Shown: positions 5,026 to 22,207 of the stretch, in pieces | How the letters are laid out: each line of letters begins with the position of its first letter | Numbering within the stretch: the stretch's first letter is position 1 | Virus record (IMG/VR): IMGVR_UViG_3300031977_000676 | Location: 1-31,982 of that record | Direction: 5' to 3' (one strand) | Length of the DNA stretch: 31,982 bases | DNA from: a virus | Translations under genes and position numbers: made by a program | The notes under the pieces: model-generated | The model's database searches: none | What the model saw: the letters and a program-made list of their open reading frames with translations, nothing else | What the model was told of the DNA's origin: nothing

Positions 5026-5676
5026 TTATGAGGAATCTCTTAAAGAATGGTGGTTTAAATCGAGGTTTTTTGTTCTTTCGTCTGTAATTATACGGTTCTT
5101 ATCACTACTATACCATTGTGATATAGTGTACCTAGCACCTCTTCTGACGGGGTATACACCGTGTTCTAGGTCTATTCCTCTGAATGCTATGCCTGTACCC
5201 CTTATAGGAGTCATTATTTGACCTGCTGGCCCTTCATTTGGGAAGTAAGTTTCACCACCTTTATAGGATTCATGACCATTTATATAGAGAATTACAGTCC
5301 ATTCTCTACTTGTTTCGTCTATAAGTCCTTCTCTTATATCAACGTCTGATACTGAGTCATTATGTGGTGTTTGAACACCACCGATAGGCCATTCATTTAT
5401 TGCACACATTTCGGGATACACTCTTAAACCCGAGTGTTTATATATTTCTGAAATAACGTCAAATGCTAATCTGTTAAAGATATCTCGAATCCATTGGGTG
5501 TGGATATGCAATATGTTTATTGCAGTGTAATCCGACCCGTCTCCTATGGTTTTAAGATGCTCGTGAGTCTTGAACCACTGAATCAGTTCCTTCGACTCCT
5601 GTTCCGTTATCAGATTCGGAAGAATCAGCACGTTCTCGTTCTTGTATAGCTCTGGCGAATGCAATTCTTGTTTCAT
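5026..5676 (-). CDS. 2OG-Fe(II) dioxygenase
   Basis: 216 residues from the ATG at 5676 (a TTG six bases further upstream is less likely). The double-stranded beta-helix iron site is visible: H105 and D107 in TPHNDS, the distal H172 in DLEHGVYPV and the 2-oxoglutarate-binding R182 in RRGARYTISQW. These residues are typical of the prolyl-4-hydroxylase-like superfamily; the substrate cannot be told. The first 41 codons or so lie inside the 3' end of the deformylase gene in another frame, an overlap of 125 bases. The N-terminal sequence encoded there (NVLILPNLITEQESKELIQW) is what this family normally has, so the overlap looks genuine. It is the last gene of the late unit that begins at 7491. Confidence 0.85.
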   Translation of the reverse strand: MKQELHSPELYKNENVLILPNLITEQESKELIQWFKTHEHLKTIGDGSDYTAINILHIHTQWIRDIFNRLAFDVISEIYKHSGLRVYPEMCAINEWPIGGVQTPHNDSVSDVDIREGLIDETSREWTVILYINGHESYKGGETYFPNEGPAGQIMTPIRGTGIAFRGIDLEHGVYPVRRGARYTISQWYSSDKNRIITDERTKNLDLNHHSLRDSS

Positions 5677-6178
5677 AATCAATTCTCTTTTTTCTCTCTT
5701 TAGGTCTTGCTTTTAAAGCACGTTCCAGTTTGAGTCTAGATGCACGTTGTAGGAATAGTATTCCATTTAAATGGTCACATTCATGTTGAACACACCTTGC
5801 ACCTAAACCAGTTAAGTGTATTACGTGTTCTTCACCTTGTGCATCTTGATATTTAAGTTCTATCTCTTTTGACCTTTTTATCATTAGATAAAGGTCGGGA
5901 AAAGATAAACAACCCTCTTTCATTAATTCTGTTTCTTGAGATACTTTAGTAATCTCGGGATTGAAAAATGCTTTAGTTCCACTGTCTGCAGTTCTCATTA
6001 CAAAAACTCTGTAGTTTAATCCAACTTGATTTGCAGATAAACCTATCCCACCATATTGTTCCATTGCAGCTGCAAGGTTGAATTCTATCTCTTCGGGGTC
6101 TTCGGGTGGTTTATCAAAGTCAAATTCGGGTGGTGGTGTGCGTAAGACCTTTGAGGCCTCTTCTATCAATTCTAACAT
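5552..6178 (-). CDS. def: Peptide deformylase
   Basis: 208 residues with all three deformylase motifs: GIGLSANQVG (44-53), EGCLS (88-92, metal ligand C90) and QHECDHLNG (131-139, ligands H132 and H136, catalytic E133). It would remove the formyl group from nascent proteins. Phage deformylases are well known in marine T4-like viruses and are thought to help processing of virus or organelle-like proteins. The catalytic domain ends near residue 160; a charged helix and a Ser/Asp/Gly-rich tail of about 45 residues follow, and most of this tail is encoded by DNA that also codes for the oxygenase N-terminus. The ATG overlaps the preceding stop (TAATG). Confidence 0.93.
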   Translation of the reverse strand: MLELIEEASKVLRTPPPEFDFDKPPEDPEEIEFNLAAAMEQYGGIGLSANQVGLNYRVFVMRTADSGTKAFFNPEITKVSQETELMKEGCLSFPDLYLMIKRSKEIELKYQDAQGEEHVIHLTGLGARCVQHECDHLNGILFLQRASRLKLERALKARPKERKKRIDYETRIAFARAIQERERADSSESDNGTGVEGTDSVVQDSRAS

Positions 6179-7485
6179 TATTTAAAGTTCACCTCAGTTT
6201 TTACTTTCACGTCTACATCTAATTCAAAAACTTTCATAGCTTCTGATACAGATTCATTTATTAACTTTTTAGCACTTTCTGCTAACTCTGTAATTTTATT
6301 TATAAACCAATTCCACAATGCAGTTAGTTTACCTTTTATCCAGTTCCATATGTCTTTGAGTTTGTCTACGAATTTGTTCTCTGAGATTACACCTTCATTT
6401 AATTGATTTTTTACTTGTTCTACTTGTTCATTTGCAGATTTTTTAAGTTCACCATGTTTGTCTAATAGTGCATCTGCTGATACTCTAATTGCTTGATAGA
6501 AATTATAACCTGCTTTTTTATTGTCTTTTTTATAAGAGTTGGATTTTAAATCTGCACGCATGGACATTTTCTTTGCAGTTGCAGAGGCAAACTTTCTATC
6601 AATCTTTAGTTGTTTGATTCTATCCATTCTGTAATCCCAAACCACCATATGTGTTGCAATACCACTAGTGTCACCACTTCCTTGTTTCATTGCATTACCA
6701 CCAAACTTTTCAAAACCAGTCATAGCTTCATATGCGAATGCACCACCGACTTCGGGATTATTAAATGCCTTTGAAAATAATTTATTGATATCACCTTTTA
6801 ATTTTTCTTGTTTTTCAACAATCTTTTTAGCTTCTGCATTACCACTTTCGATTGCTTGTTCGGGTGTCATTTTTTTAAGATTACCAGCATTAACTTCTGC
6901 ACCAACTGTTCTAGTGTTGTCTACAAAAACGTCTACTGCATCTACTAATTGATTCTTTAAGTCTTCACTTGTTTTGACCATTTGTAATGCAGATAATACA
7001 GTTGCTTTAGCTTCTGCTTTTTTACCCGACATTAGTTGTGCTTTCGGGCCTTTGACTGAAGAAGGATAACCACCAATAATTATATCTGCCTTTGAAGTGT
7101 CAATACCTTTACCAGTGGTTTCTTTCCAAAATGAACTTAGTCCTTTTTTACTTTGACCAGCACCTGCGTCATGTTTACCACTTGGGAGTTTTGCATTACA
7201 TACTTGTGCGAAATCATAAAGAATATCCATTTTCTCTTCTGTTGATTTTACTTTATGTGTTGCAAATAATTTATTTGGTGTTTTAAGGAAACCAGTGACA
7301 TACTCGTCTTTGGTCATTTTCTCTATGAACTTGTCCTTTGGTAATTTTGCATTTTGAAGACATGCAACTATAACACCTTCGAACTTCGTTGAGGCGTCTG
7401 TTCCCTCACTAAGTGTAGGTGTATACTTAGGTAATTCTAGTTTGACTCCCTCTATTGGATTAGTGACTTCTGAGAATGATTTCAT
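6178..7485 (-). CDS. Late 435-residue protein, possible nuclease-like core with a Trp-rich amphipathic tail
   Basis: I place the start at the ATG at 7485 (MKSFSEVTNPIEG), not at the longer frame opening at 7599, because the late promoter TATAAATA lies five bases upstream and the longer start would be inside gp46. Residues E36 (KFEGVIV), D134 (KADIIIGG) and S143-V144-K145, followed by KAQLMSGKKAE, resemble the spacing of a PD-(D/E)xK nuclease fold. This is a guess from pattern only. The C-terminal part (about 371-415) is a long amphipathic helix rich in Trp (DIWNWIKGKLTALWNWF), which could bind membrane or a virion partner. Late expression suggests a virion or lysis-stage protein. Confidence 0.75.
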   Translation of the reverse strand: MKSFSEVTNPIEGVKLELPKYTPTLSEGTDASTKFEGVIVACLQNAKLPKDKFIEKMTKDEYVTGFLKTPNKLFATHKVKSTEEKMDILYDFAQVCNAKLPSGKHDAGAGQSKKGLSSFWKETTGKGIDTSKADIIIGGYPSSVKGPKAQLMSGKKAEAKATVLSALQMVKTSEDLKNQLVDAVDVFVDNTRTVGAEVNAGNLKKMTPEQAIESGNAEAKKIVEKQEKLKGDINKLFSKAFNNPEVGGAFAYEAMTGFEKFGGNAMKQGSGDTSGIATHMVVWDYRMDRIKQLKIDRKFASATAKKMSMRADLKSNSYKKDNKKAGYNFYQAIRVSADALLDKHGELKKSANEQVEQVKNQLNEGVISENKFVDKLKDIWNWIKGKLTALWNWFINKITELAESAKKLINESVSEAMKVFELDVDVKVKTEVNFK

Positions 7486-7490
7486 ATTAC

Positions 7491-7498
7491 TATTTATA
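7491..7498 (-). promoter_or_regulatory. T4-type late promoter, five bases from the ATG
   Basis: The minus strand reads TATAAATA at 7498-7491, directly after the gp46 stop codon (7501-7499), then GTAAT and the ATG at 7485. In T4 late promoters initiation falls about six bases past this box, which here is the ATG itself, so a leaderless message is predicted. It would drive the 435-residue protein, deformylase and oxygenase. Confidence 0.8.
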
Positions 7499-9214
7499 TT
7501 ATTCTGCAATTCTCGAGAAGTTTTTGTATTTCTCAAACCTAATAACGTCATTAAATTTATCATATAATGTTTCTCCTTTATGAGATATGATAAACGCATT
7601 TGTCTTTTCCGTCAAGGTGTTTAGTAGTTTTAAGAAATCGTCTGTTCCTTGTGAGTCTAATGAAGAATCGAAAACTTCGTCTAATATCAATAGGTTAGTG
7701 TTAACTGAGTTCTTCATTCTTGCAACACTTCTCCATGTGAATAGTAGTGCAAGGTCGATTCTCATTTTCTCCCCTTGTGAGAAGTTATCGTATTTGAATA
7801 CGTCTCTGAATCTTGATTTGATTGTTTCTTCGAACTTTTCATTCAATTCAAAACCAACATAGAATTCTAATTGTGCAAGATACTTGTTAATCAGCTTGTT
7901 CATAATAGGAACATACTGTTTGATAATCTTTTGTCTTACACCTTGGTCTCTGAGTAACACTTGTGCAATTTCATAGTAGTGTTGTTGGTCAACTAATGAT
8001 TCTTTCTTTGCATGTAGAATATCTAGTTTGTCTTCACTATCACTGATTCTTTCTTGCACGTCACCATTACCAGTTCCTTCTTGTTTGAGTTCTGCAATCA
8101 TTTTCTGCATTTTTTGAATGAACTTTTGATTAGATACAACCTCTGTTTGCAAGATACCAATCTCTTTTTGAATTGTGGTTATTTCGTCTTGGATTCCGTT
8201 GATTTCTTGGATTCGGGTATTAAGGTCTTCGACTTGTAAATCGAGTTGTGACACCGCCTCCTTGATTTCTGCGACCTTATTCTGTTTTTCCTCAATGTGT
8301 TTCTTCTTGTGTTCATCGTCTAGACCCTGTTTGCATGTGGGACAATCGTCATTGTTCTCATAGAATTCAATGTCTTTAATTGCTTTTCTTCGAGCGTCCT
8401 CAAGTCTAGCTTCCATGTCAACTGTTTGTTTGAGTTTATCCTCTTTAGTATCTTTATCTGAGATGGTGGATTTTTTCTCCACCACATTTTCCGTCTTTTC
8501 ATCTATGTCCCCTAAAAGTTTGTTAATATTCTCTTGAGTTTCCTCAACGGTATTTTCATATTTTAGGATTTTCGATTCACGATTTTCACGAAGTGCATTA
8601 AGTTGTTCATTTAGTCCGTTAATTCTTTCTTCAAGTAAGTCGATTTCATGATTATTCTCTCTAACCTCAACAGTATGATTAGAAATCTTTTTCTTAAGGA
8701 TATCTCCCATAGTAGAAAAGATTGATATATCCAAAAGGTCTTCCACAAGTTTACGTCTATCTGCAGCCTTTAATTGCATGAAAGGAGTAAAGTTTGCTGA
8801 CCCGAGGATTGCAACTTGAGTAAAGGAACGATAACTCATTTTGAGTATGTTCTTTTCTAAGTGTTCTTGGTAGTCTCTGACTGTTGCATCTTGATTGACG
8901 AACACGTCATTAACATAGAGTTCGAATTTGTTTGGTTTTGCACCTCTAATAACTTTGTATTGTTTCTTACCAATAGAGAACTCAACCTCAACTAAAAGGT
9001 TTCCTCCATTAACAGAATTGATTAGAAGTTCTTTCTTAAGATTTCTGAACCCCTTTCCATAGAGTCCAAAACAAAGTGCATCTAATAATGTAGATTTACC
9101 AGCACCGTTATCACCTAAGATTAGTGTCGTTTGGTGTTTGTCTAGTTGTATTTCTGTAAATTTGTTTCCACTGGATAGTAAGTTTTTGTATCTTACTTTC
9201 TTAAAATTTATCAT
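7499..9214 (-). CDS. 46: gp46 recombination endonuclease subunit (SbcC/Rad50-like)
   Basis: 571 residues, near the T4 length of 560. Walker A GDNGAGKST (34-42), a long coiled-coil region interrupted by a zinc-hook CPTC (291-294), the ABC signature FSQGEKMR (478-485) and Walker B LLILDE (508-513) are all present in Rad50 order. With gp47 it forms the Mre11/Rad50-type nuclease that resects DNA ends for recombination-dependent replication and helps degrade host DNA. The start overlaps the gp47 stop (ATGA), so the two subunits are translationally coupled. Its stop codon abuts the late promoter at 7491. Confidence 0.95.
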   Translation of the reverse strand: MINFKKVRYKNLLSSGNKFTEIQLDKHQTTLILGDNGAGKSTLLDALCFGLYGKGFRNLKKELLINSVNGGNLLVEVEFSIGKKQYKVIRGAKPNKFELYVNDVFVNQDATVRDYQEHLEKNILKMSYRSFTQVAILGSANFTPFMQLKAADRRKLVEDLLDISIFSTMGDILKKKISNHTVEVRENNHEIDLLEERINGLNEQLNALRENRESKILKYENTVEETQENINKLLGDIDEKTENVVEKKSTISDKDTKEDKLKQTVDMEARLEDARRKAIKDIEFYENNDDCPTCKQGLDDEHKKKHIEEKQNKVAEIKEAVSQLDLQVEDLNTRIQEINGIQDEITTIQKEIGILQTEVVSNQKFIQKMQKMIAELKQEGTGNGDVQERISDSEDKLDILHAKKESLVDQQHYYEIAQVLLRDQGVRQKIIKQYVPIMNKLINKYLAQLEFYVGFELNEKFEETIKSRFRDVFKYDNFSQGEKMRIDLALLFTWRSVARMKNSVNTNLLILDEVFDSSLDSQGTDDFLKLLNTLTEKTNAFIISHKGETLYDKFNDVIRFEKYKNFSRIAE

Positions 9215-10278
9215 AGATAGTTATGTTCGTCCAAAGCTTCATTATATAATGACGACATAAGTTCTGCAAGGGGTTTCTTCTTCCCTTGTATTTCCAACCC
9301 GTCAATATAGTTGTTTAATATAGTTAAAGTGTCTTCGATATCTTCTATATCATCGTCACCATAGAAATCCATATGTTTGTTGTCGTCTACAACTGCAACG
9401 TGTATTGGATTACTTGCATGTAGTTTATCTAAGAATGTATCAAACCAATAAGGATTGTCTTTATTTACTACTATTACTTTTACAAATTTGTTTGTAAATT
9501 TAGAATAATCTATGTTAGATATTGTTTCAAAAGTTTCTTTTGTATCGTCATAGAATGATTTCTCAAACATGGTGATTGGATTTAAAACTGGAGTAAGTTC
9601 TTGGGTCTCGGTATCAAATATATGAAAGTATTTGTTATCTCCATAATCTGACCAAGTAAATTGCATTTGAGACCCAAGATATCTGATATTTGCAAATTCA
9701 GATTTTTGGTGGAAATGACCACTCAAAACTGTTTCAAATCTTTTTACATAAGAATGGTCTAGTCCGTGTTGACACGTCATGCCTGGCATCATTAATGCAC
9801 CTTCAAATTCAAAGTGTCCCATACACCAACTTGCATTTGCAGTCTTTAAGAAATCAACAGCGTCTGCATAGTTTTCGGGATTAATCCATGGAGATAATGC
9901 AATGTTAAATCCGTCATACTCTTTGACTTCATGTTCTTGAATGACATTTACATTTTTTTGATTGTATAATAACAACTCGGGTGAGTTTACTTCATTGGTG
10001 TTCTTATAATAAGTATCATGATTACCTAGAATTAAATCCATAGTAATACCACGTTCAGTCATTGGGTCAATGAAGTGTTTGATATTTGCTTTCATGGAAG
10101 CAAAATTTATGTATTTTCTTCTGTCGAAGTAGTCCCCTAAGTGTATTATGTGTTTAATGTTATGTTCGTCCATATATGGGAAGAACACTTCATTATAAAA
10201 TCTTCCTTGGTAATTTGACATTTCTATCATATCACCTCGGACACCACAATGGGTATCATTCAGTAATGCTATTTTCAT
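9211..10278 (-). CDS. 47: gp47 recombination endonuclease subunit (SbcD/Mre11-like)
   Basis: 355 residues. Metallophosphoesterase motifs in order are NDTH (7-10), GDYFDRR (48-54), GNHD (85-88), GHFEF (154-158) and SGHFH (186-190), giving a complete two-metal site. It is the nuclease partner of gp46. The ATG overlaps the gp55 stop (ATGA) and its own stop overlaps the gp46 start (ATGA), forming the coupled chain 55-47-46 that matches the T4 order. Confidence 0.95.
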   Translation of the reverse strand: MKIALLNDTHCGVRGDMIEMSNYQGRFYNEVFFPYMDEHNIKHIIHLGDYFDRRKYINFASMKANIKHFIDPMTERGITMDLILGNHDTYYKNTNEVNSPELLLYNQKNVNVIQEHEVKEYDGFNIALSPWINPENYADAVDFLKTANASWCMGHFEFEGALMMPGMTCQHGLDHSYVKRFETVLSGHFHQKSEFANIRYLGSQMQFTWSDYGDNKYFHIFDTETQELTPVLNPITMFEKSFYDDTKETFETISNIDYSKFTNKFVKVIVVNKDNPYWFDTFLDKLHASNPIHVAVVDDNKHMDFYGDDDIEDIEDTLTILNNYIDGLEIQGKKKPLAELMSSLYNEALDEHNYL

Positions 10279-10832
10279 TCAGTAAATTTTTCTAAGTTTG
10301 TTGTTTTTTTAACTTTTTTGGTTCTAGATTTACGAGGTTCGTATTCAACACGATTCATGTTTTCTTGCATCCATTCCACATTAGTATTAGTAAGGGTTGG
10401 GTCGTGTTGTCCGTCAATAGTATCGAATGCACTTGTTATCATTCCAGCAGCGTCCGTGGCCTGTTGTTTAATGAAGACCTGTTTTTTCTCCTTTTGGATT
10501 CTTCTGAGGAATGCATAGTAACAAATTTGTGTTATGTATGCAAATGCGTTAGTTGATTTTTCGGGGTTAAAGTTTCCGATATACTGAATACAATTTTCAA
10601 TTGCATCACATATCATTTCATCTCTATATGTGTAGTTGATAAAATTAGGACGAGTCGATAATCGAGTCGCAATCTTATAGATACATTCACCAATGTATTC
10701 TGTCATTTGAGGTTTAGACTTACCTTTCTCTTCTGCAAGTTTACATGCAATGTTAAACTCGGAGACTGCAGCTGTAAACTCTTTGTTGTTTACATAATGC
10801 TCTGCCTTTTTAGGGTCTTTTTTAGTAGTCAT
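10275..10832 (-). CDS. 55: gp55-like late-transcription sigma factor
   Basis: 185 residues from the ATG at 10832, the same length as T4 gp55. The upstream TTG at 10850 would place the -10 promoter box inside the coding region, so it is rejected. The N-terminal YVNNKEF and the central block (YIGNFNPEKSTNAFAYITQI, then FLRRIQKEKKQ) match T4 gp55 in order and character. gp55 directs host RNA polymerase to TATAAATA late promoters, and seven such boxes are present in this window. No ribosome binding site is seen; the -10 box at 10844-10839 is six bases from the ATG, predicting a leaderless message. The protein heads the 55-47-46 unit. Confidence 0.9.
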   Translation of the reverse strand: MTTKKDPKKAEHYVNNKEFTAAVSEFNIACKLAEEKGKSKPQMTEYIGECIYKIATRLSTRPNFINYTYRDEMICDAIENCIQYIGNFNPEKSTNAFAYITQICYYAFLRRIQKEKKQVFIKQQATDAAGMITSAFDTIDGQHDPTLTNTNVEWMQENMNRVEYEPRKSRTKKVKKTTNLEKFTE

Positions 10833-10966: not shown

Positions 10967-11104
10967 CTAATAAGAGATGATATCTTTAATCCTACTCTTT
11001 GCAAACGATTGTATCTCCACTGCACGACTCATTTTATCAATCTCACCAACGGCAAGATAAAACATGCATAATCCCAATGTTGTACCTATTATATAGTGTT
11101 TCAT
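10967..11104 (-). CDS. 45-residue mini membrane protein
   Basis: Too short for routine calling but linked to its neighbour by an ATGA overlap: ATG at 11104-11102 and the upstream gene's TGA at 11103-11101. The product begins MKHYIIGTTLGLCMFYLAVG, a short hydrophobic stretch that could span or enter the membrane, followed by a charged amphipathic tail (EIDKMSRAVEIQSFAKSRIK). It is the last gene of the cytochrome cassette. No family is recognised. The overlap and the membrane character shared with the rest of the cassette are the reasons to believe it. Confidence 0.6.
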   Translation of the reverse strand: MKHYIIGTTLGLCMFYLAVGEIDKMSRAVEIQSFAKSRIKDIISY

Positions 11105-11280
11105 ATCTTACCCAATCCTAGATTGATTAGCCAAAAGGACAACAACATAAAACCGAAAACGAGGACTTGCACGACTGACATTACTGCAACTTGTTTCATA
11201 GGGTGAACCTCGACAATTCTTTCAATCCAAGATTCACTGGGTGATAAGTTTACGATTTGTAAGAGTTTTTCCTCTTTCAC
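11101..11280 (-). CDS. 59-residue mini membrane protein (GTG start)
   Basis: GTG at 11280 overlaps the cytochrome stop in a GTGA junction; the product ends at the TGA at 11101. A short charged N-terminus (KEEKLLQIVNLSPSESWIER) is followed by a transmembrane segment at about 33-57 (VMSVVQVLVFGFMLLSFWL). An internal ATG at residue 28 is an alternative start that would leave mostly the membrane segment. Its position directly after the cytochrome, in perfect coupling with both neighbours, suggests a subunit or anchor of the same complex. No family recognised. Confidence 0.65.
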   Translation of the reverse strand: MKEEKLLQIVNLSPSESWIERIVEVHPMKQVAVMSVVQVLVFGFMLLSFWLINLGLGKI

Positions 11281-11720
11281 TTCAACTCAATCTCAATGAA
11301 TTTACCAATCATATTGATATCTTCATCACTCAACATACCAGCTTGTGCCCACATAGTAGAAGACATATTACCAACTGTTTCTCTGTTTTTATATGCATTG
11401 AGTTTATTTACAATGTAATCTGAACTTTGACCAGCAAGTTTAGGGAAGACTCCCATACCTTGACCTTCTGCACCGTGACAAGCTGCACAACCACTCCATA
11501 GACCTCTAATAGAAGAGAATTCGTCTGCATTTGCAAGTTCTTGTTTTCTCTGTTCAATCTCTGAAGCAGTTCCAAATTGTTCAACATAGTCAACATAACA
11601 CTGACCCGTGCAACTATGTCCTCCAGTTCCACCTGTATATTCTAAATTTGGATATATCTTAAATCCAAAAAACACACCTATTGCAAGTGTGCATAGTAAT
11701 GCTTGTCCTAGTTCTCTCAT
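11277..11720 (-). CDS. Membrane-anchored c-type cytochrome
   Basis: 147 residues. An N-terminal hydrophobic segment (about 6-23, QALLCTLAIGVFFGFKIYP) serves as an uncleaved anchor or signal peptide, so the rest should be periplasmic. A single heme-c site CAACH (78-82) is followed by GAEGQGMGVFPKLAGQ and a C-terminal helix (LSDEDINMIGKFIE), the layout of a class I cytochrome c. M119 or M123 is the likely axial ligand. An unusual HSCTGQC (35-41, Cys37 and Cys41) lies between anchor and heme domain and could be a disulfide or metal site. It would depend on host heme attachment machinery. The ATG is coupled to the upstream 30-residue gene (TAATG). A role in diverting or sustaining host respiratory electron flow is inference. 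Confidence 0.88.
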   Translation of the reverse strand: MRELGQALLCTLAIGVFFGFKIYPNLEYTGGTGGHSCTGQCYVDYVEQFGTASEIEQRKQELANADEFSSIRGLWSGCAACHGAEGQGMGVFPKLAGQSSDYIVNKLNAYKNRETVGNMSSTMWAQAGMLSDEDINMIGKFIEIELK

Positions 11721-11812
11721 TATGATATTCCTGTAATTGATATAACGGACACCATGAAGATACCTACTAATGTAGTTATCTCCAAAGTATCTCTAAGTTT
11801 TTCGAAGTTCAT
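11720..11812 (-). CDS. 30-residue mini membrane protein
   Basis: ATG at 11812 overlaps the 58-residue gene's stop (ATGA), and the TAA overlaps the cytochrome ATG (TAATG). The product is a short charged head (MNFEKLRDTLE) and one hydrophobic helix (TTLVGIFMVSVISITGIS). Being coupled on both sides argues that it is translated; if not, it may simply be a coupling leader for the cytochrome. Single-helix subunits of this size occur in respiratory complexes, but no homology is claimed. Confidence 0.55.
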   Translation of the reverse strand: MNFEKLRDTLEITTLVGIFMVSVISITGIS

Positions 11813-11985
11813 ACTATATTCCACATACTGAAATACATCACTATGAAGGGTAGTAAGAAGGGAAGAGTCATAAGCACTAGAAATTCGATAGTGTCAACCA
11901 GTTTTCGTTTTGTTGGACGAATGATATGATTAACTTCTCTAGCTTTTCGTACCATGCTCTTCGCAAAAAAAGTTGCTGTGGTCAT
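11809..11985 (-). CDS. 58-residue mini membrane protein, first gene of the cytochrome cassette
   Basis: ATG at 11985 preceded by AGGAAA. The N-terminal half is strongly basic (KSMVRKAREVNHIIRPTKRK), followed by a Leu/Phe/Pro-rich transmembrane helix at about 34-57 (FLVLMTLPFLLPFIVMYFS). By the positive-inside rule the N-terminus should be cytoplasmic. It opens the five-gene chain and ends in an ATGA overlap with the 30-residue gene. A holin-like role is an alternative reading for a small basic membrane protein, but the company of a cytochrome favours a respiratory or membrane complex. No family recognised. Confidence 0.65.
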   Translation of the reverse strand: MTTATFFAKSMVRKAREVNHIIRPTKRKLVDTIEFLVLMTLPFLLPFIVMYFSMWNIV

Positions 11986-12069: not shown

Positions 12070-12558
12070 CTAATGAATCTTTTTTGGGTCGGTAGGTTTT
12101 ATAGCTTCTTCAAACTCACTCTCTACTAGTTCCTCATAGAACTCATCAAATAAATCTTCGTCTTTGACATTCTTAAGAATAGAGTCAACTGCCTTTTTCA
12201 TGTATTCTCTTGATACACCTTTCAAGTCATTGGTTAATGGAATGGAACCTGTCTCCACCATCTTCAACCAGTTTGCAGAAGCTTCGTCATAGAACGGAAT
12301 AAATTGAGAATTCATATTACTTCTATGTAAGACTTGGTCGAATGGAATTTTGACGATAGGGTCTTCACTCATAGGTGCATAAGGATAGAAGGTTGCAAGT
12401 GTTGAATTGATTGGTTGTTGAACCGATAAATGACATATCATAGGAAGTGTAACTTCGAGACCTTCTGTTGTGTCTCTAACCATTCCTACAAACTCTGTAC
12501 CAGTCTTGAGTTTGATAACTTCATATCTTTGTTTAAGTAAGTCGTTTGGTGTTGCCAT
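12070..12558 (-). CDS. Hypothetical protein, possibly Sm-like N-terminal barrel
   Basis: 162 residues. The first half (RYEVIKLKTGTEFVGMV and the beta-rich stretch that follows) reads like a small beta barrel of the Sm/LSm type, where a Gly-x-x-Phe/x-Gly strand pair is usual; this is a fold guess only. The C-terminal third is helical and acidic (KNVKDEDLFDEFYEELVESE). The ATG overlaps the UvsW stop (TAATG), so expression is tied to the helicase, and a possible internal late promoter lies at 12611-12618. If the fold guess is right, RNA binding would be the first activity to suspect. Confidence 0.7.
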   Translation of the reverse strand: MATPNDLLKQRYEVIKLKTGTEFVGMVRDTTEGLEVTLPMICHLSVQQPINSTLATFYPYAPMSEDPIVKIPFDQVLHRSNMNSQFIPFYDEASANWLKMVETGSIPLTNDLKGVSREYMKKAVDSILKNVKDEDLFDEFYEELVESEFEEAIKPTDPKKIH

Positions 12559-14003
12559 TAGTCTAAGTCAAATTGTTTTATTTCGTATGAAAAATTTTCC
12601 TCGTTGTAAATATTTATACGTTCCTTAAGGTGACCAAGTGTGAAATTATCACATTGCAAATCGTCTGCAATATCAAATAATCTCATTTCACTCTTACCTT
12701 CAGTTTTCCTTAGACCTCTACCAATAGATTGTAGATTCCTTATCCTTGACTTAGAAGGACTTGCAAAAACTACATTATCAATTTTCTTTATATTAACTCC
12801 AGTAGAAAAAGTTCCGTATGACGCTAGTATGACACTATCGTTAGATTTTTCTACCACCTCTCTGACTGTTTCTCTGTCTTCTGTATCTGTTCCACCATAG
12901 ACATAGTGTAAGTCCTTTACTCTTCCGTCTAACATAGGATATAAGACTTCACCATGTTTCTGTACATATTGGAACAACACTAAAGTATTACCTTTTAAAC
13001 TTGCAACTAAATTTGTTATGAATTTGTTTCTACTATCATTCGACACCAAGTAATCCATTTCTTCTTGGTATGTCAATTTTTTCATTTTAGTATGACGAAG
13101 TATGACACAATCTATCTTCAAATTTGCAATTGTACCTTCTTCCATTAACTCGTATGACGTTATGACTTTTTTTACAGGGCCGAACAAACCTTCAAGTTGT
13201 AACCTATGAACTTCTGACCCGTCCAGTGTTCCAGTCGTTCCAAAACGAACACTAGTGTGTTTCATTTTCTCTAAGATACCTTTTAGTGTTTGTGCTTTGA
13301 ATAAATGTGCTTCGTCCCCTATCACTACGTCAAATCCCTGTACAACTTCTTTAGGAGCTTTACTGAATGATTGCCATGTGGTGACCGTAATAGGTGCATC
13401 AAATACTTCTTGACCGTGATAGATTTTACAGATAGGTTCTTTGTATCCGTATTCTTTGAAATCTTTTGACATTTGTTCTACCAATGAGGTAGTGGGAACG
13501 ATAATAATAGTCTTACAATTAGGTAGAGACATTTCTCCTTCATACCACCTACACAACATATAAATGATTAAAGACTTTCCACTTGCAGTTGGTGAAAGTA
13601 ATAACTGTCTTCCGTATTGCACTGCAGTTTTGAATGCTTCTATTTGATAATCACGTGGTTGAAATGGAAGACCCAAGCCTGGGATTAGGTCGTCACCATT
13701 AATAAAGAAATCTACGTCTTCGTCTGTAATTGTTGTTTTGTCTCCGATTACTTCTTGTATACCACCAAACTCATAACCACGTTCTCTACAGAATTCGTCA
13801 ACGTATGGAAGTAATCCAATATAGATTTTATTTGTCTTCATTGAGAAGAGTCTGACTTTACCGTCCCAATACTTATTCTTATAAGAAGGCATAAATTTTG
13901 CGCCTGGGACTGTATAAGAAAAGAAGTCATATAAGTCTCTTGCAAGTCCATCATCACAATGAACTTTCATAAAGACATCATCTAATTTTTCTACTGTAAC
14001 CAT
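12558..14003 (-). CDS. uvsW: UvsW-like recombination helicase
   Basis: 481 residues, close to T4 UvsW. The N-terminal accessory domain (about 1-100, with KYWDGKVRLF) precedes an SF2 helicase core: RDYQ Q-like motif (117-120), Walker A SPTASGKS (137-144), DEAH (230-233), TGT (257-259) and motif VI SIGRGLR near residue 436. UvsW unwinds branched intermediates and R-loops and shifts T4 from origin-dependent to recombination-dependent replication. It is preceded by an oxygenase gene and UvsY, a common order in marine T4-like phages. A strong ribosome binding site is not seen. Confidence 0.93.
   Translation of the reverse strand: MVTVEKLDDVFMKVHCDDGLARDLYDFFSYTVPGAKFMPSYKNKYWDGKVRLFSMKTNKIYIGLLPYVDEFCRERGYEFGGIQEVIGDKTTITDEDVDFFINGDDLIPGLGLPFQPRDYQIEAFKTAVQYGRQLLLSPTASGKSLIIYMLCRWYEGEMSLPNCKTIIIVPTTSLVEQMSKDFKEYGYKEPICKIYHGQEVFDAPITVTTWQSFSKAPKEVVQGFDVVIGDEAHLFKAQTLKGILEKMKHTSVRFGTTGTLDGSEVHRLQLEGLFGPVKKVITSYELMEEGTIANLKIDCVILRHTKMKKLTYQEEMDYLVSNDSRNKFITNLVASLKGNTLVLFQYVQKHGEVLYPMLDGRVKDLHYVYGGTDTEDRETVREVVEKSNDSVILASYGTFSTGVNIKKIDNVVFASPSKSRIRNLQSIGRGLRKTEGKSEMRLFDIADDLQCDNFTLGHLKERINIYNEENFSYEIKQFDLD
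12611..12618 (-). promoter_or_regulatory. Possible late promoter inside the uvsW 3' end
   Basis: TATAAATA on the minus strand at 12618-12611, within uvsW codons for a Tyr/Asn/Ile-rich stretch. It would start transcription near 12605, about 47 bases before the 162-residue gene. Since it is inside a coding region of AT-rich sequence it may be chance. Confidence 0.3.
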
Positions 14004-14010
14004 AATGGTT

Positions 14011-14688
14011 TTACTTGAAAGGAGTACCTAACAACCACCCTACTAGTGATGTTCGAGCTCCTCGTGTGACTGGGGTGACTTGGTGGTGAACGTCTGAAGG
14101 GAATAATAAAATACTTCCTCTTGTTTTTGCACTAAAGGGTGCAGTTCTTTTCATTGCATCTATACCTACAGATTTGTCACCTTGTTTTATTCTATCAAAC
14201 ATACTATGTGGTTCTAACCATTCGAAATGACCACCTTCATATTCATCGGGGTCTGATAATTGAATGGTGCAACTTAACTTACGAATAAGGCCTTCTGTAC
14301 CATGTACCTGTCCAACATGACCCGAATCTGTATGCCATGTATAGAAATCACCTTTTGTATTAGGTTGTTCACTATATTGTGTAAATTGGAAATTTTCAAA
14401 ATGACTTAAATCCCAAGTCCATGCATTATCTCCTTGTGCGAATTGAACTCCTTGTGCAAGTTTATCATGAAATTCTTGTGGTAACATTTCATGTGTTAAC
14501 CATTTAACACTTGACCTTCTAATCTCATCATCAGCACGTCCTGATGCTTCTGCACTATCGGGGTCATTAGCTGCAAATCCAACTCTACCCTCTTCCCATT
14601 CTATTTTATTTGCACATGCGATTATAGAATCAACTTCTTGTGATGTAAAGAATGCCTCTGCAATCCAAACATAGTTTTGATATATCAT
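14011..14688 (-). CDS. 2OG-Fe(II) dioxygenase, PKHD-type
   Basis: 225 residues from the ATG at 14688 (MIYQNYVWIAEAF), which overlaps the UvsY stop (TAATG) and has AGGGT upstream; the longer frame to 14715 is less likely. The iron site is H119 and D121 (WHTDSGH) with the distal H202 and the 2OG-binding R212 in HHQVTPVTRGARTSLVGW. That C-terminal pattern is typical of the PKHD/PiuC-like hydroxylases found in cyanophages and other marine T4-like viruses. The substrate is unknown. It lies between uvsY and uvsW and is likely cotranscribed with them. Confidence 0.88.
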   Translation of the reverse strand: MIYQNYVWIAEAFFTSQEVDSIIACANKIEWEEGRVGFAANDPDSAEASGRADDEIRRSSVKWLTHEMLPQEFHDKLAQGVQFAQGDNAWTWDLSHFENFQFTQYSEQPNTKGDFYTWHTDSGHVGQVHGTEGLIRKLSCTIQLSDPDEYEGGHFEWLEPHSMFDRIKQGDKSVGIDAMKRTAPFSAKTRGSILLFPSDVHHQVTPVTRGARTSLVGWLLGTPFK

Positions 14689-15131
14689 TATGACCCTGCC
14701 ATGAATTTTCTCCAATCGATTGTATTCTTAATCGTTTGGTGTCTCCAAGTGATATTTTGCATACACTCTTTGAGATAATCTATCGTTACTTTTAAATACT
14801 CAATCTTTGCATTGAGTTCTTGTATATCTTTATCTGAGTTATAGAAGATTTGTAAATCAGTTTTCATAATTTTCAATCCGTCTAAAGGGTCGTCTGACCA
14901 ACCCAACTCTTTGATTTGTTCTTGAGACATTTTTCCGTTATACCACAACCACTTATCCTTTAGAAGTGTATCATATTTGTATTGGTATTGTTTCATAACA
15001 AGTATCTTACTGGATAGTAAGTCTTGGTATTTTGCATGGAGTTTAGGTATTTCTAAAGACGATTTATCTAGTTCGATATCGTCTATCTCACAATCCTTTT
15101 CCCACTGGCTCTTAATTTCATCTAATGTCAT
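14688..15131 (-). CDS. uvsY: UvsY recombination mediator
   Basis: 147 residues (T4 UvsY has 137). It is almost all helical, with the N-terminal MTLDEIKSQWEKD and the C-terminal WRKFMAGS corresponding to MRLEDLQEELKKD and MRAFEAGK of T4 UvsY. UvsY loads the UvsX recombinase onto gp32-coated single-stranded DNA. The start at 15131 follows an extended -10 box by eight bases, leaving hardly any leader. Synteny with uvsW two genes downstream supports the call. Confidence 0.85.
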   Translation of the reverse strand: MTLDEIKSQWEKDCEIDDIELDKSSLEIPKLHAKYQDLLSSKILVMKQYQYKYDTLLKDKWLWYNGKMSQEQIKELGWSDDPLDGLKIMKTDLQIFYNSDKDIQELNAKIEYLKVTIDYLKECMQNITWRHQTIKNTIDWRKFMAGS

Positions 15132-15161: not shown

Positions 15162-15704
15162 TTAGGAAGTGGATTCTATGTCGTAATATGTAAATCTAAA
15201 TTCGACTGTAGCAACCACTGCCTCGGTCTCTGCACCACTCTGTAATTCTATACCACTAAGAGATATAGGAAATGCATCATGGAATCTAAAAAATTTATTT
15301 GGTATGTTTTTGTTAGTGTTAACCACTATTGTAATGTCTGAATATTGTGCAAGGTCGTTAGTAACGTTACTATACTCACCCGTTGCAGTCTTTTGTGTTC
15401 CAGTGAAGTTTGCATAATCAGTAGGGTCTGATACTGGAACGATTGCATTCATCCAATCATACATCTCTTTAAAGTTTGCAAGGTCTTCGTCTACTAAAAA
15501 TGATACACTTAGTGATTCGAATGACACTTTATCGCCTGGGAAAAATGCATCTAATCCCACACCAGCTGCACTGATTGTTTCAGTGAATGATAAGCCTGGG
15601 ATATTGACTGATTGAATATAGTATTCCACTGTTGGAACTTTATCAATCAGTAATCTAAAGTTATTCTTATTAAGAATAGACTTGTTAATTGCAGTTTCAG
15701 TCAA
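15162..15704 (-). CDS. gp19-like tail tube paralogue / tail completion protein (gene 3 position)
   Basis: 180 residues. NFRLLIDKVPTVEYYIQSVN, then IPGLSF, PGDKVSFESL and VSFLVDEDLANF is the strand pattern of tail-tube-type proteins of T4-like phages. It is clearly separate from the main tube protein gp19 at 21710. In related marine phages a gene in this place, between the capsid gene and uvsY, is often annotated gp3 (tail completion). I favour a tube-like end-capping or completion role. Its start overlaps the preceding 72-residue gene by eight bases. Confidence 0.65.
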   Translation of the reverse strand: MTETAINKSILNKNNFRLLIDKVPTVEYYIQSVNIPGLSFTETISAAGVGLDAFFPGDKVSFESLSVSFLVDEDLANFKEMYDWMNAIVPVSDPTDYANFTGTQKTATGEYSNVTNDLAQYSDITIVVNTNKNIPNKFFRFHDAFPISLSGIELQSGAETEAVVATVEFRFTYYDIESTS

Positions 15705-21709: not shown

Positions 21710-22207
21710 TTATTGAACTCTTTCCCAGTGAGAAAAAGTAAAGTCAACTGTAAATTCCTCAAGTGCATCAACTGTATCGTAAGATAGTTCGATTGCACCT
21801 ATATTTTTAGGGAACATGTTGAAAAACTCGTATCTCGCAAGGACAGAATCATCTTTGTTTAATTGTTCTACAAAGGCTCTAGAAATAAGATAGTCTGTAG
21901 AGGTTGAACCTTCTCCACTATCCATAGCTTGAATCTCTTCTTGCCATGCTTCTAGACCACTTCTTACTGAGAACTCAACATCGTTGATTACTGTAATCTG
22001 CCAATCTTCGAATGTTCTCTCACCAGCAAGTTTAAGATTGTGTCCTCTGAAAGGAACTACAACTTCTCCTAAAGTTCCTGCTGGGATATTAGCAGCTTTA
22101 CATAAGAACTCAATCTTATTACCAGCTCTTGGTATAAAAACTTTAAATCGGTTAGCACGTGGGCCTCCACCGATAAGTTGTGCTTTAAATTGGTCTATAG
22201 TTGCCAT
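21710..22207 (-). CDS. 19: gp19 tail tube protein
   Basis: 165 residues (T4 gp19 has 163), directly after the sheath gene as in T4. NRFKVFIPRAGNKIEFLCKA, then IPAGTLGEV, PFRGHNLKLAGERTFEDW and the C-terminal EFTVDFTFSHWERV follow the family pattern. It polymerises into the inner tube of the contractile tail. AAGGAGAAAT precedes the ATG at 22207. Confidence 0.93.
   Translation of the reverse strand: MATIDQFKAQLIGGGPRANRFKVFIPRAGNKIEFLCKAANIPAGTLGEVVVPFRGHNLKLAGERTFEDWQITVINDVEFSVRSGLEAWQEEIQAMDSGEGSTSTDYLISRAFVEQLNKDDSVLARYEFFNMFPKNIGAIELSYDTVDALEEFTVDFTFSHWERVQ

Follow-up and report, generated by a model that had tools for sequence, protein, structure and literature searches.

A predicted single-haem cytochrome c gene, present or absent in a row of overlapping mini genes of T4-like phage contigs

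Five overlapping reading frames in a slot between conserved T4-like genes

The window, by which we mean the whole stretch of DNA analysed, is a 31,982-base virus record with T4-like genes for the portal, tail sheath, major head protein and terminase, and likewise for the head scaffolding protein and the head maturation protease. Its head protein was nearest to that of the Methylophilales phage Melnitz (65.8%), followed by the Pelagibacter phages HTVC008M (65.4%) and Mosig (64.0%), and its tail sheath gave 51.1% with Mosig and 50.5% with HTVC008M. A peptide deformylase (phrog_2890) is encoded near the gp46 and gp47 genes, which fits the operon placement given in PMC7029224, where a peptide deformylase gene is described in the DNA-metabolism operon of all its pelagimyophages. 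Between the deformylase and gp46 lies a 473-residue frame (6178-7599) without a PHROG match at E 0.001. Two families were each matched by two separate window proteins, namely the tail tube family phrog_45 (15162-15704 and 21710-22207) and the 2OG-Fe(II) oxygenase phrog_61 (14011-14715 and 5026-5682), and the 5026-5682 protein also matched a DNA endonuclease family.

Table 1. Features of the slot and its surroundings, with window positions
Feature	Position	Strand	Basis
gp55-like late sigma factor, downstream edge of the slot	10275..10832	-	phrog_234, E 2e-58
ORF5, 45 aa, N-terminal predicted helix and polar tail	10967..11104	-	ATG start
ORF4, 59 aa, single predicted membrane helix	11101..11280	-	GTG start
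cytC, 147 aa, N-terminal hydrophobic anchor and class I cytochrome c domain, CAACH	11277..11720	-	ATG start
ORF2, 30 aa, single predicted membrane helix	11720..11812	-	ATG start
ORF1, 58 aa, basic N-terminal segment and one predicted membrane helix	11809..11985	-	ATG start
162-aa gene between the cassette and uvsW	12070..12558	-	phrog_471, E 0.0049
uvsW-like helicase, upstream side of the slot	12558..14003	-	phrog_16, E 2e-100
TATAAATA, T4-type late-promoter-like site upstream of the 162-aa gene and cassette	12611..12618	-	motif scan

Five frames on one strand fill a slot with gp55, gp47 and gp46 on one side and uvsW and uvsY on the other (Table 1). The original prediction had described a cytochrome c flanked by four mini genes (ORF1, ORF2, ORF4 and ORF5), all overlapping, and the sizes, coordinates and junctions agreed with that description. 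Read along the coding strand, the junctions are GTATGA, CATAATG, AAGTGAAAG and ATATGA, giving overlaps of 4, 1, 4 and 4 bases; ORF2 could alternatively be called as 34 residues from an upstream GTG. Each product contains one hydrophobic stretch, with 19-residue Kyte-Doolittle maxima from ORF1 to ORF5 of 2.15, 2.02, 1.77, 2.37 and 1.55.

Comparison with relatives revealed that in all five genes the differences were fewest at codon position 2 and most at position 3. The divergence per site at positions 1/2/3 was 0.213/0.137/0.282 for ORF1, 0.193/0.038/0.307 for ORF2, 0.164/0.136/0.288 for the cytochrome, 0.163/0.090/0.340 for ORF4 and 0.210/0.134/0.278 for ORF5. The median dN/dS, determined from pairs with pS of 0.1-0.6 that share history, was 0.49 for ORF1, 0.35 for ORF2, 0.27 for the cytochrome, 0.17 for ORF4 and 0.44 for ORF5; by this measure the constraint was strongest on ORF4 and weakest on ORF1 and ORF5. 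The codon-position constraint and the occurrence of the same five-gene order in 24 of 52 distinct cassettes on other contigs ruled out spurious frames, confirming that all five reading frames are real. Comparing synonymous with nonsynonymous change in the minis had been suggested as a check, and its outcome bears out the claim of four conserved small membrane proteins.

The uvsW-like helicase of the window gave 49-51% when compared with what lies at the uvsW places of P-HM1 and Mosig, and in both of these phages the gene at the position of the 162-residue gene is annotated 'methylamine utilization'. The corresponding slot holds one short annotated frame in Mosig and in Melnitz and none in P-HM1, and neither the cytochrome nor ORF4 was found in the whole genomes of these three phages. 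Upstream of the 162-residue gene and the cassette is a site of the sequence TATAAATA, which we take to be the T4-type late-promoter motif. Ten such sites were found in the window compared with 2.9 expected, a number reached in 0 of 100 shuffles. They span positions 6297-29006, nine on the minus strand and one on the plus strand, several of them just upstream of structural genes. Perhaps the four minis are expressed together with the 162-residue gene from this late-promoter-like site. Sigma-70-like sites were not enriched in the window (nine found and 11.7 expected), and a terminator-like site at 11692-11672 was taken as chance (one found and 1.2 expected).

The cytochrome protein and its occurrence

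The product of the third frame matched the Pfam family PF00034 at E 1e-8, with 36.8 bits against a cut-off of 21.3, and the family was likewise above its cut-off in all 18 cytochrome-positive records examined. A profile of 26 cytochrome sequences matched solved c552, c554 and c4 cytochromes, the best six at E 3e-18 to 6e-15, and aligned Met122 with a methionine of 1h1o, 8yts and 2zzs, which we take to be an axial ligand of the haem. This distal methionine of cytC sits in MSSTMWAQAGML. Residues Cys77, Cys80, His81 and Met122 are invariant in the 26 aligned sequences, and so are Cys36 and Cys40 of the N-terminal segment. Among 91 distinct copies (cytochromes of at least 135 residues from all fetched loci), CxxCH and the N-terminal CxxxC were present in every one, CAACHG in 90 and MxxxMW in 86. 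The five exceptions to MxxxMW, four with glutamine at the Met118 place and one with tyrosine for tryptophan, keep the second methionine, which points to Met122 as the ligand. Among the nearest relatives alone the motif count was 49/49, and the stricter methionine pattern failed only in the wider set of 91; proteins shorter than 140 residues were left out of one protein set. An AlphaFold2 model was all-helical with a mean pLDDT of 68, and in a Foldseek search with this model ranks 1-4 were small c-type cytochromes with a probability of 1.00 and weak E values (best 0.014). A hydrophobic stretch at residues 4-22 (Kyte-Doolittle 1.77) forms the putative anchor, and the soluble part after it is acidic, with a net charge of -7. 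Thus, judged by its sequence, the third frame is a single-haem class I cytochrome c with CAACH and an N-terminal anchor, as originally proposed. The N-terminal segment of ~50 residues with the invariant CxxxC had no family match above the cut-off.

Compared with known systems, the phage cytochrome has in common with the c4/c554/c552 group (solved as 1h1o, 1etp, 2zzs and 8yts) the CxxCH, the F-P-x-L-x-GQ region and a methionine seven residues before an LSDxDI stretch. However, it has a single CxxCH in its 147 residues, and c4 binds two haems, so it is not a c4; the anchor and the CxxxC segment are further additions with respect to c4. Cytochrome cy/CycM has one N-terminal helix and one haem domain, a layout suited to shuttling from bc1 to oxidase. 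The anchor and single haem domain of the phage protein resemble it in layout only, and the phage protein has its own linker with invariant cysteines.

Phages of photosynthetic cells carry electron-transport genes, and those of cyanobacteria have the electron carriers plastocyanin and ferredoxin as auxiliary genes. The present gene is similarly a single electron-carrier gene in T4-like marine phages, but its product is of a respiratory type, and the head and sheath proteins of the window are nearest to those of pelagi- and methylophages. A viral cbb3 oxidase (subunit I) has been claimed from viromes, according to PMC3474794; it too would be a respiratory chain protein in the marine viral fraction, but as an oxidase subunit from virome annotation. 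The relevant statement in PMC8115048 is that no cytochromes were observed in its phages, and in PMC11480375 a phage 5-aminolevulinate synthase is thought to support respiration. PMC7029224, PMC9004378 and PMC13079714 do not use the word cytochrome in their main text, and PMC3686209 gives a cytochrome as a gene of Prochlorococcus. No phage cytochrome c of this kind appeared among the literature matches listed, which comprised titles and abstract openings, mostly of open-access papers and none from bioRxiv.

Searches of IMG/VR detected 243 relatives of the cytochrome with the window protein as query and 483 with an alignment. Further scans with two other cytochromes as query gave 393 relatives each and widened the locus set. 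For the minis, 333 relatives of ORF4, 136 of ORF1 and 63 of ORF5 were obtained. These scans rely on conserved peptides of short length and do not pick up distant relatives, and the loci examined were the nearest only, that is, the best 80 of the 483 cytochrome, 333 ORF4 and 136 ORF1 relatives. Phages had been said to carry c-type cytochromes seldom, and among 50,697 named phage records the window cytochrome indeed had no tblastn match at E 0.01; ORF1 and ORF4 had none at E 10. The best PHROG match of the cytochrome was at E 0.064.

Among 84,980 species, scanned with one genome each, four contigs carried the cytochrome. Their ribonucleotide reductase (Pfam-checked in three, L082, L083 and L084) and glutaredoxin-like neighbours are as on viral contigs, and these matches were rejected as host genes and taken as binned phage. 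The four (L082, L083, L084 and L085) are phage-like contigs that had been assigned to MAGs of Sphingobacteriales, Synechococcus and Planctomycetaceae, two of them in one Synechococcus bin; of 59 genomes from the phylum of that bin, the MAG was the sole one to match at E 1e-10. Among plasmid records, 52 had a cellular relative, in no case covering 80% of the cytochrome, and the 15 listed showed 30-48% over residues 47-146 at most. Bacterial contamination as the source was rejected, as the neighbours are ribonucleotide reductase, glutaredoxin, uvsW, gp55 and the like.

Cytochrome and minis as separable units

The original prediction expected the same five-gene order in other marine viral contigs, and this held for part of them. 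Among the 52 distinct cassettes running from ORF1 to ORF5, which do not include the record of the window itself, 24 contained the cytochrome, all in the order ORF1-ORF2-cytochrome-ORF4-ORF5 (they were selected for having ORF1 and ORF5), and 28 did not. The latter had the orders ORF1-ORF2-ORF4-ORF5 (16 cassettes), ORF1-ORF2-ORF5 (six), ORF1-ORF4-ORF5 (four) and ORF1-ORF5 (two), and in some of them (for example L127 and L230) another small frame fills the gap. Overlapping starts and stops were found at most junctions of the compared loci. Conversely, 22 of 92 distinct cytochrome loci had all four minis and 41 had none at the threshold used, and the remainder had ORF4 upstream only (23), ORF1 and ORF2 (three) or ORF4 downstream only (three). 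These loci include the four MAG contigs, and without them 38 of 88 lacked any mini. Cassettes containing N, cytochromes shorter than 380 nt and loci with less than 700 bp of flank on a side were left out of the counts.

The clearest case was a pair of different contigs, L007 and L102, whose flanks of 866 and 790 bp were 99.2% identical and whose sole difference was a 443-base block, the cytochrome gene. The same presence or absence was seen between the window and L087 (91% over the aligned part) and between L006 and L151 (99%), with the alignment in more pieces. Thus the cytochrome is present or absent as one clean unit, and the slot between gp55-gp47-gp46 and uvsW-uvsY is variable, as had been claimed. 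Three contigs whose cassette lacks the cytochrome (123.8, 42.9 and 45.0 kb) had none elsewhere in the record.

The mini row is one of several genome places of the cytochrome. We labelled 85 loci by their neighbours, with gene names first assigned by eye and a Pfam check made on examples only (PF00268, PF01467, PF00462 and, at E 1e-16, the ferritin-like PF00210). The cytochrome lay in the mini row in 41 loci, eight of them with an 87-residue membrane protein downstream. In 33 loci it followed the gene for the ribonucleotide reductase small subunit (nrdB), with glutaredoxin downstream in all and ORF4 variable; in seven it followed a cytidylyltransferase-like gene, with a ferritin-like gene downstream in six. 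The other four were elsewhere or cut short. A second batch of loci added glutaredoxin upstream of the cytochrome (six distinct loci) and other neighbours. On a tree of 53 cytochromes, the five context labels need 10 changes, compared with a minimum of 4 and a shuffle mean of 24.9, showing that the gene has moved between places, though not freely. In L023, L043, L064 and L082, the space separating the cytochrome from the ribonucleotide reductase gene upstream of it encodes another one-helix protein, 54-55 residues long, that has a GTKG motif and a basic tail; one of these proteins had no Pfam match.

Exactly one cytochrome was present in each of the 39 positive virus records searched whole (11/11 and 28/28), and no second PF00034 protein was found in 18 cytochrome-positive records. 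It was absent from 11 records with minis or ORF4, which as virus records may be fragments, and from three isolates. Heme oxygenase, looked for as a companion gene, was absent from all 18 cytochrome records and from three others; only Mosig has it, which gives no support for a haem-handling set with the cytochrome.

None of the four minis had a Pfam or PHROG match at E 0.1, holin and antiholin families included. For ORF4, a profile matched no PDB sequence at E 1, and thirteen relatives had no PHROG match. ORF4 has conserved LQ..NLSP and HPMKQ motifs and an invariant glutamine (Gln38) in its helix. In 48 of 92 loci it is found no more than 700 bp from the cytochrome, on the downstream side in the mini row and on the upstream side at the nrdB place. 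No record yielded more than one copy; ORF4 was detected in 19 of 25 records at E 0.01 (three weak matches) and in 16 of 28 of a second set at E 0.001 (four weak matches). In most records having both ORF4 (E <1e-20) and the cytochrome the two are adjacent, with exceptions at 4.8 kb (G100), 1.4 kb (G103) and 0.6 kb (G101). ORF4 also stands without the cytochrome beside PhoH (L116), a curlin-repeat protein (L101), ribonucleotide reductase (L111) and other genes. The association is therefore loose, and fits a working link or shared permissive slots alike. On L101 (1259-2229) the ORF4-family gene directly precedes the curlin-repeat protein (PF07012), which by eye starts with an ORF2-like helix. On L123 (1122-1436) an ORF4 domain stands behind an N-terminal segment resembling, by eye, the 89-residue proteins of L305 and L306; by this resemblance the frame links the ORF4 and L305/L306 one-helix families.

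Possible roles of the cytochrome and the minis

It had been proposed that the five proteins together form a small electron-transfer complex in the membrane that alters host respiration. The fixed order in all 24 cytochrome-bearing cassettes, the mostly overlapping starts and stops and the nearness of ORF4 to the cytochrome in about half of the loci would suit such a complex. However, the 28 cassettes without the cytochrome, the 41 loci without minis, the L007/L102 pair, the three long contigs with a cytochrome-less cassette and the ORF4 genes in other company argue against an obligatory five-part assembly, and we consider the complex quite unlikely. Lack of conservation of the mini frames, with the cytochrome present alone, was to count against the proposal; the minis turned out to be conserved, and the cytochrome often occurs without them, as they do without it. 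The minis are thus conserved one-helix proteins forming a set separable from the cytochrome, perhaps serving takeover, exclusion or lysis. That they are a lysis or superinfection-exclusion set, with the cytochrome an unrelated passenger in the operon, is possible, if somewhat doubtful: a late-promoter-like site upstream and the conservation of four short one-helix proteins whether or not the cytochrome is present are consistent with it, but the minis match no holin or immunity protein in Pfam or PHROGs, no endolysin family was above its cut-off among the window proteins scanned (part of the window frames), and ORF4 is found alone in other loci. It is very unlikely that the mini row is a toolkit by which the phage docks onto the respiratory complexes of the host, ORF4 being the general docking subunit that turns up in various phages and loci and the cytochrome an optional electron outlet; if this were true, the phage would rewire the electron flow of streamlined marine bacteria and not just top it up.

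Two further readings concern the cytochrome itself. Its N-terminal CxxxC part might serve another redox task, and the protein could be a redox partner outside the main chain, acting in thiol, iron or peroxide chemistry through this region. The invariance of CxxxC in all 91 copies and the adjoining glutaredoxin gene in two places and ferritin-like gene in a third agree with this; yet glutaredoxin and ferritin-like proteins are cytoplasmic and the cytochrome is expected outside, and loci with ribonucleotide reductase, ORF4 and glutaredoxin exist without the cytochrome (L088 and L111), so that the adjacency of glutaredoxin may only mark a permissive slot. We regard this role as rather unlikely. 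Far less probable still is a docking decoy that blocks host respiration. Although the acidic soluble part and an N-terminal segment without known relatives could suit a decoy, it would need neither the haem motif, kept in 91/91 copies, nor the distal methionine place, which is kept as well.

The reading we favour, to which we give about an even chance, is that of a mobile auxiliary electron carrier from the host bc1 complex to the terminal oxidase, inserted in a separable mini row. Relatives of the c4/c554/c552 type serve as electron shuttles in respiration, and the putative shuttle role is drawn from the function of these solved relatives together with the anchor and the ligands, no partner having been found here. 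The cytochrome would be a moron of uncultured marine T4-like phages, a mobile auxiliary gene moving as a single unit, here inserted exactly at the ORF2/ORF4 overlap of a four-gene row that exists without it too. As expected for a moron, it was found in phage genomes, in the window together with head, portal, sheath and terminase genes, and varied in presence at a fixed place, as in the L007/L102 pair and the 24 cassettes with and 28 without it; a given lineage may have gained or lost it. Its product would face the periplasm as a membrane-anchored single-haem cytochrome c, loaded with haem and matured by the presumed host. By carrying electrons from bc1 to the terminal oxidase it would sustain respiration and the proton gradient while the infection proceeds, the probable benefit to the phage.

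At 30 to 59 codons, the conserved mini genes are short enough that gene callers may overlook them. The cytochrome has no solid PHROG match and none in the 50,697 named phage records, so that phage annotation based on these resources misses it. A natural control is available in the near-identical contigs that differ in having or lacking the cytochrome. If a cytochrome c proved widespread in phages of respiring ocean bacteria, it would count as genetic evidence that these phages manage host respiration.
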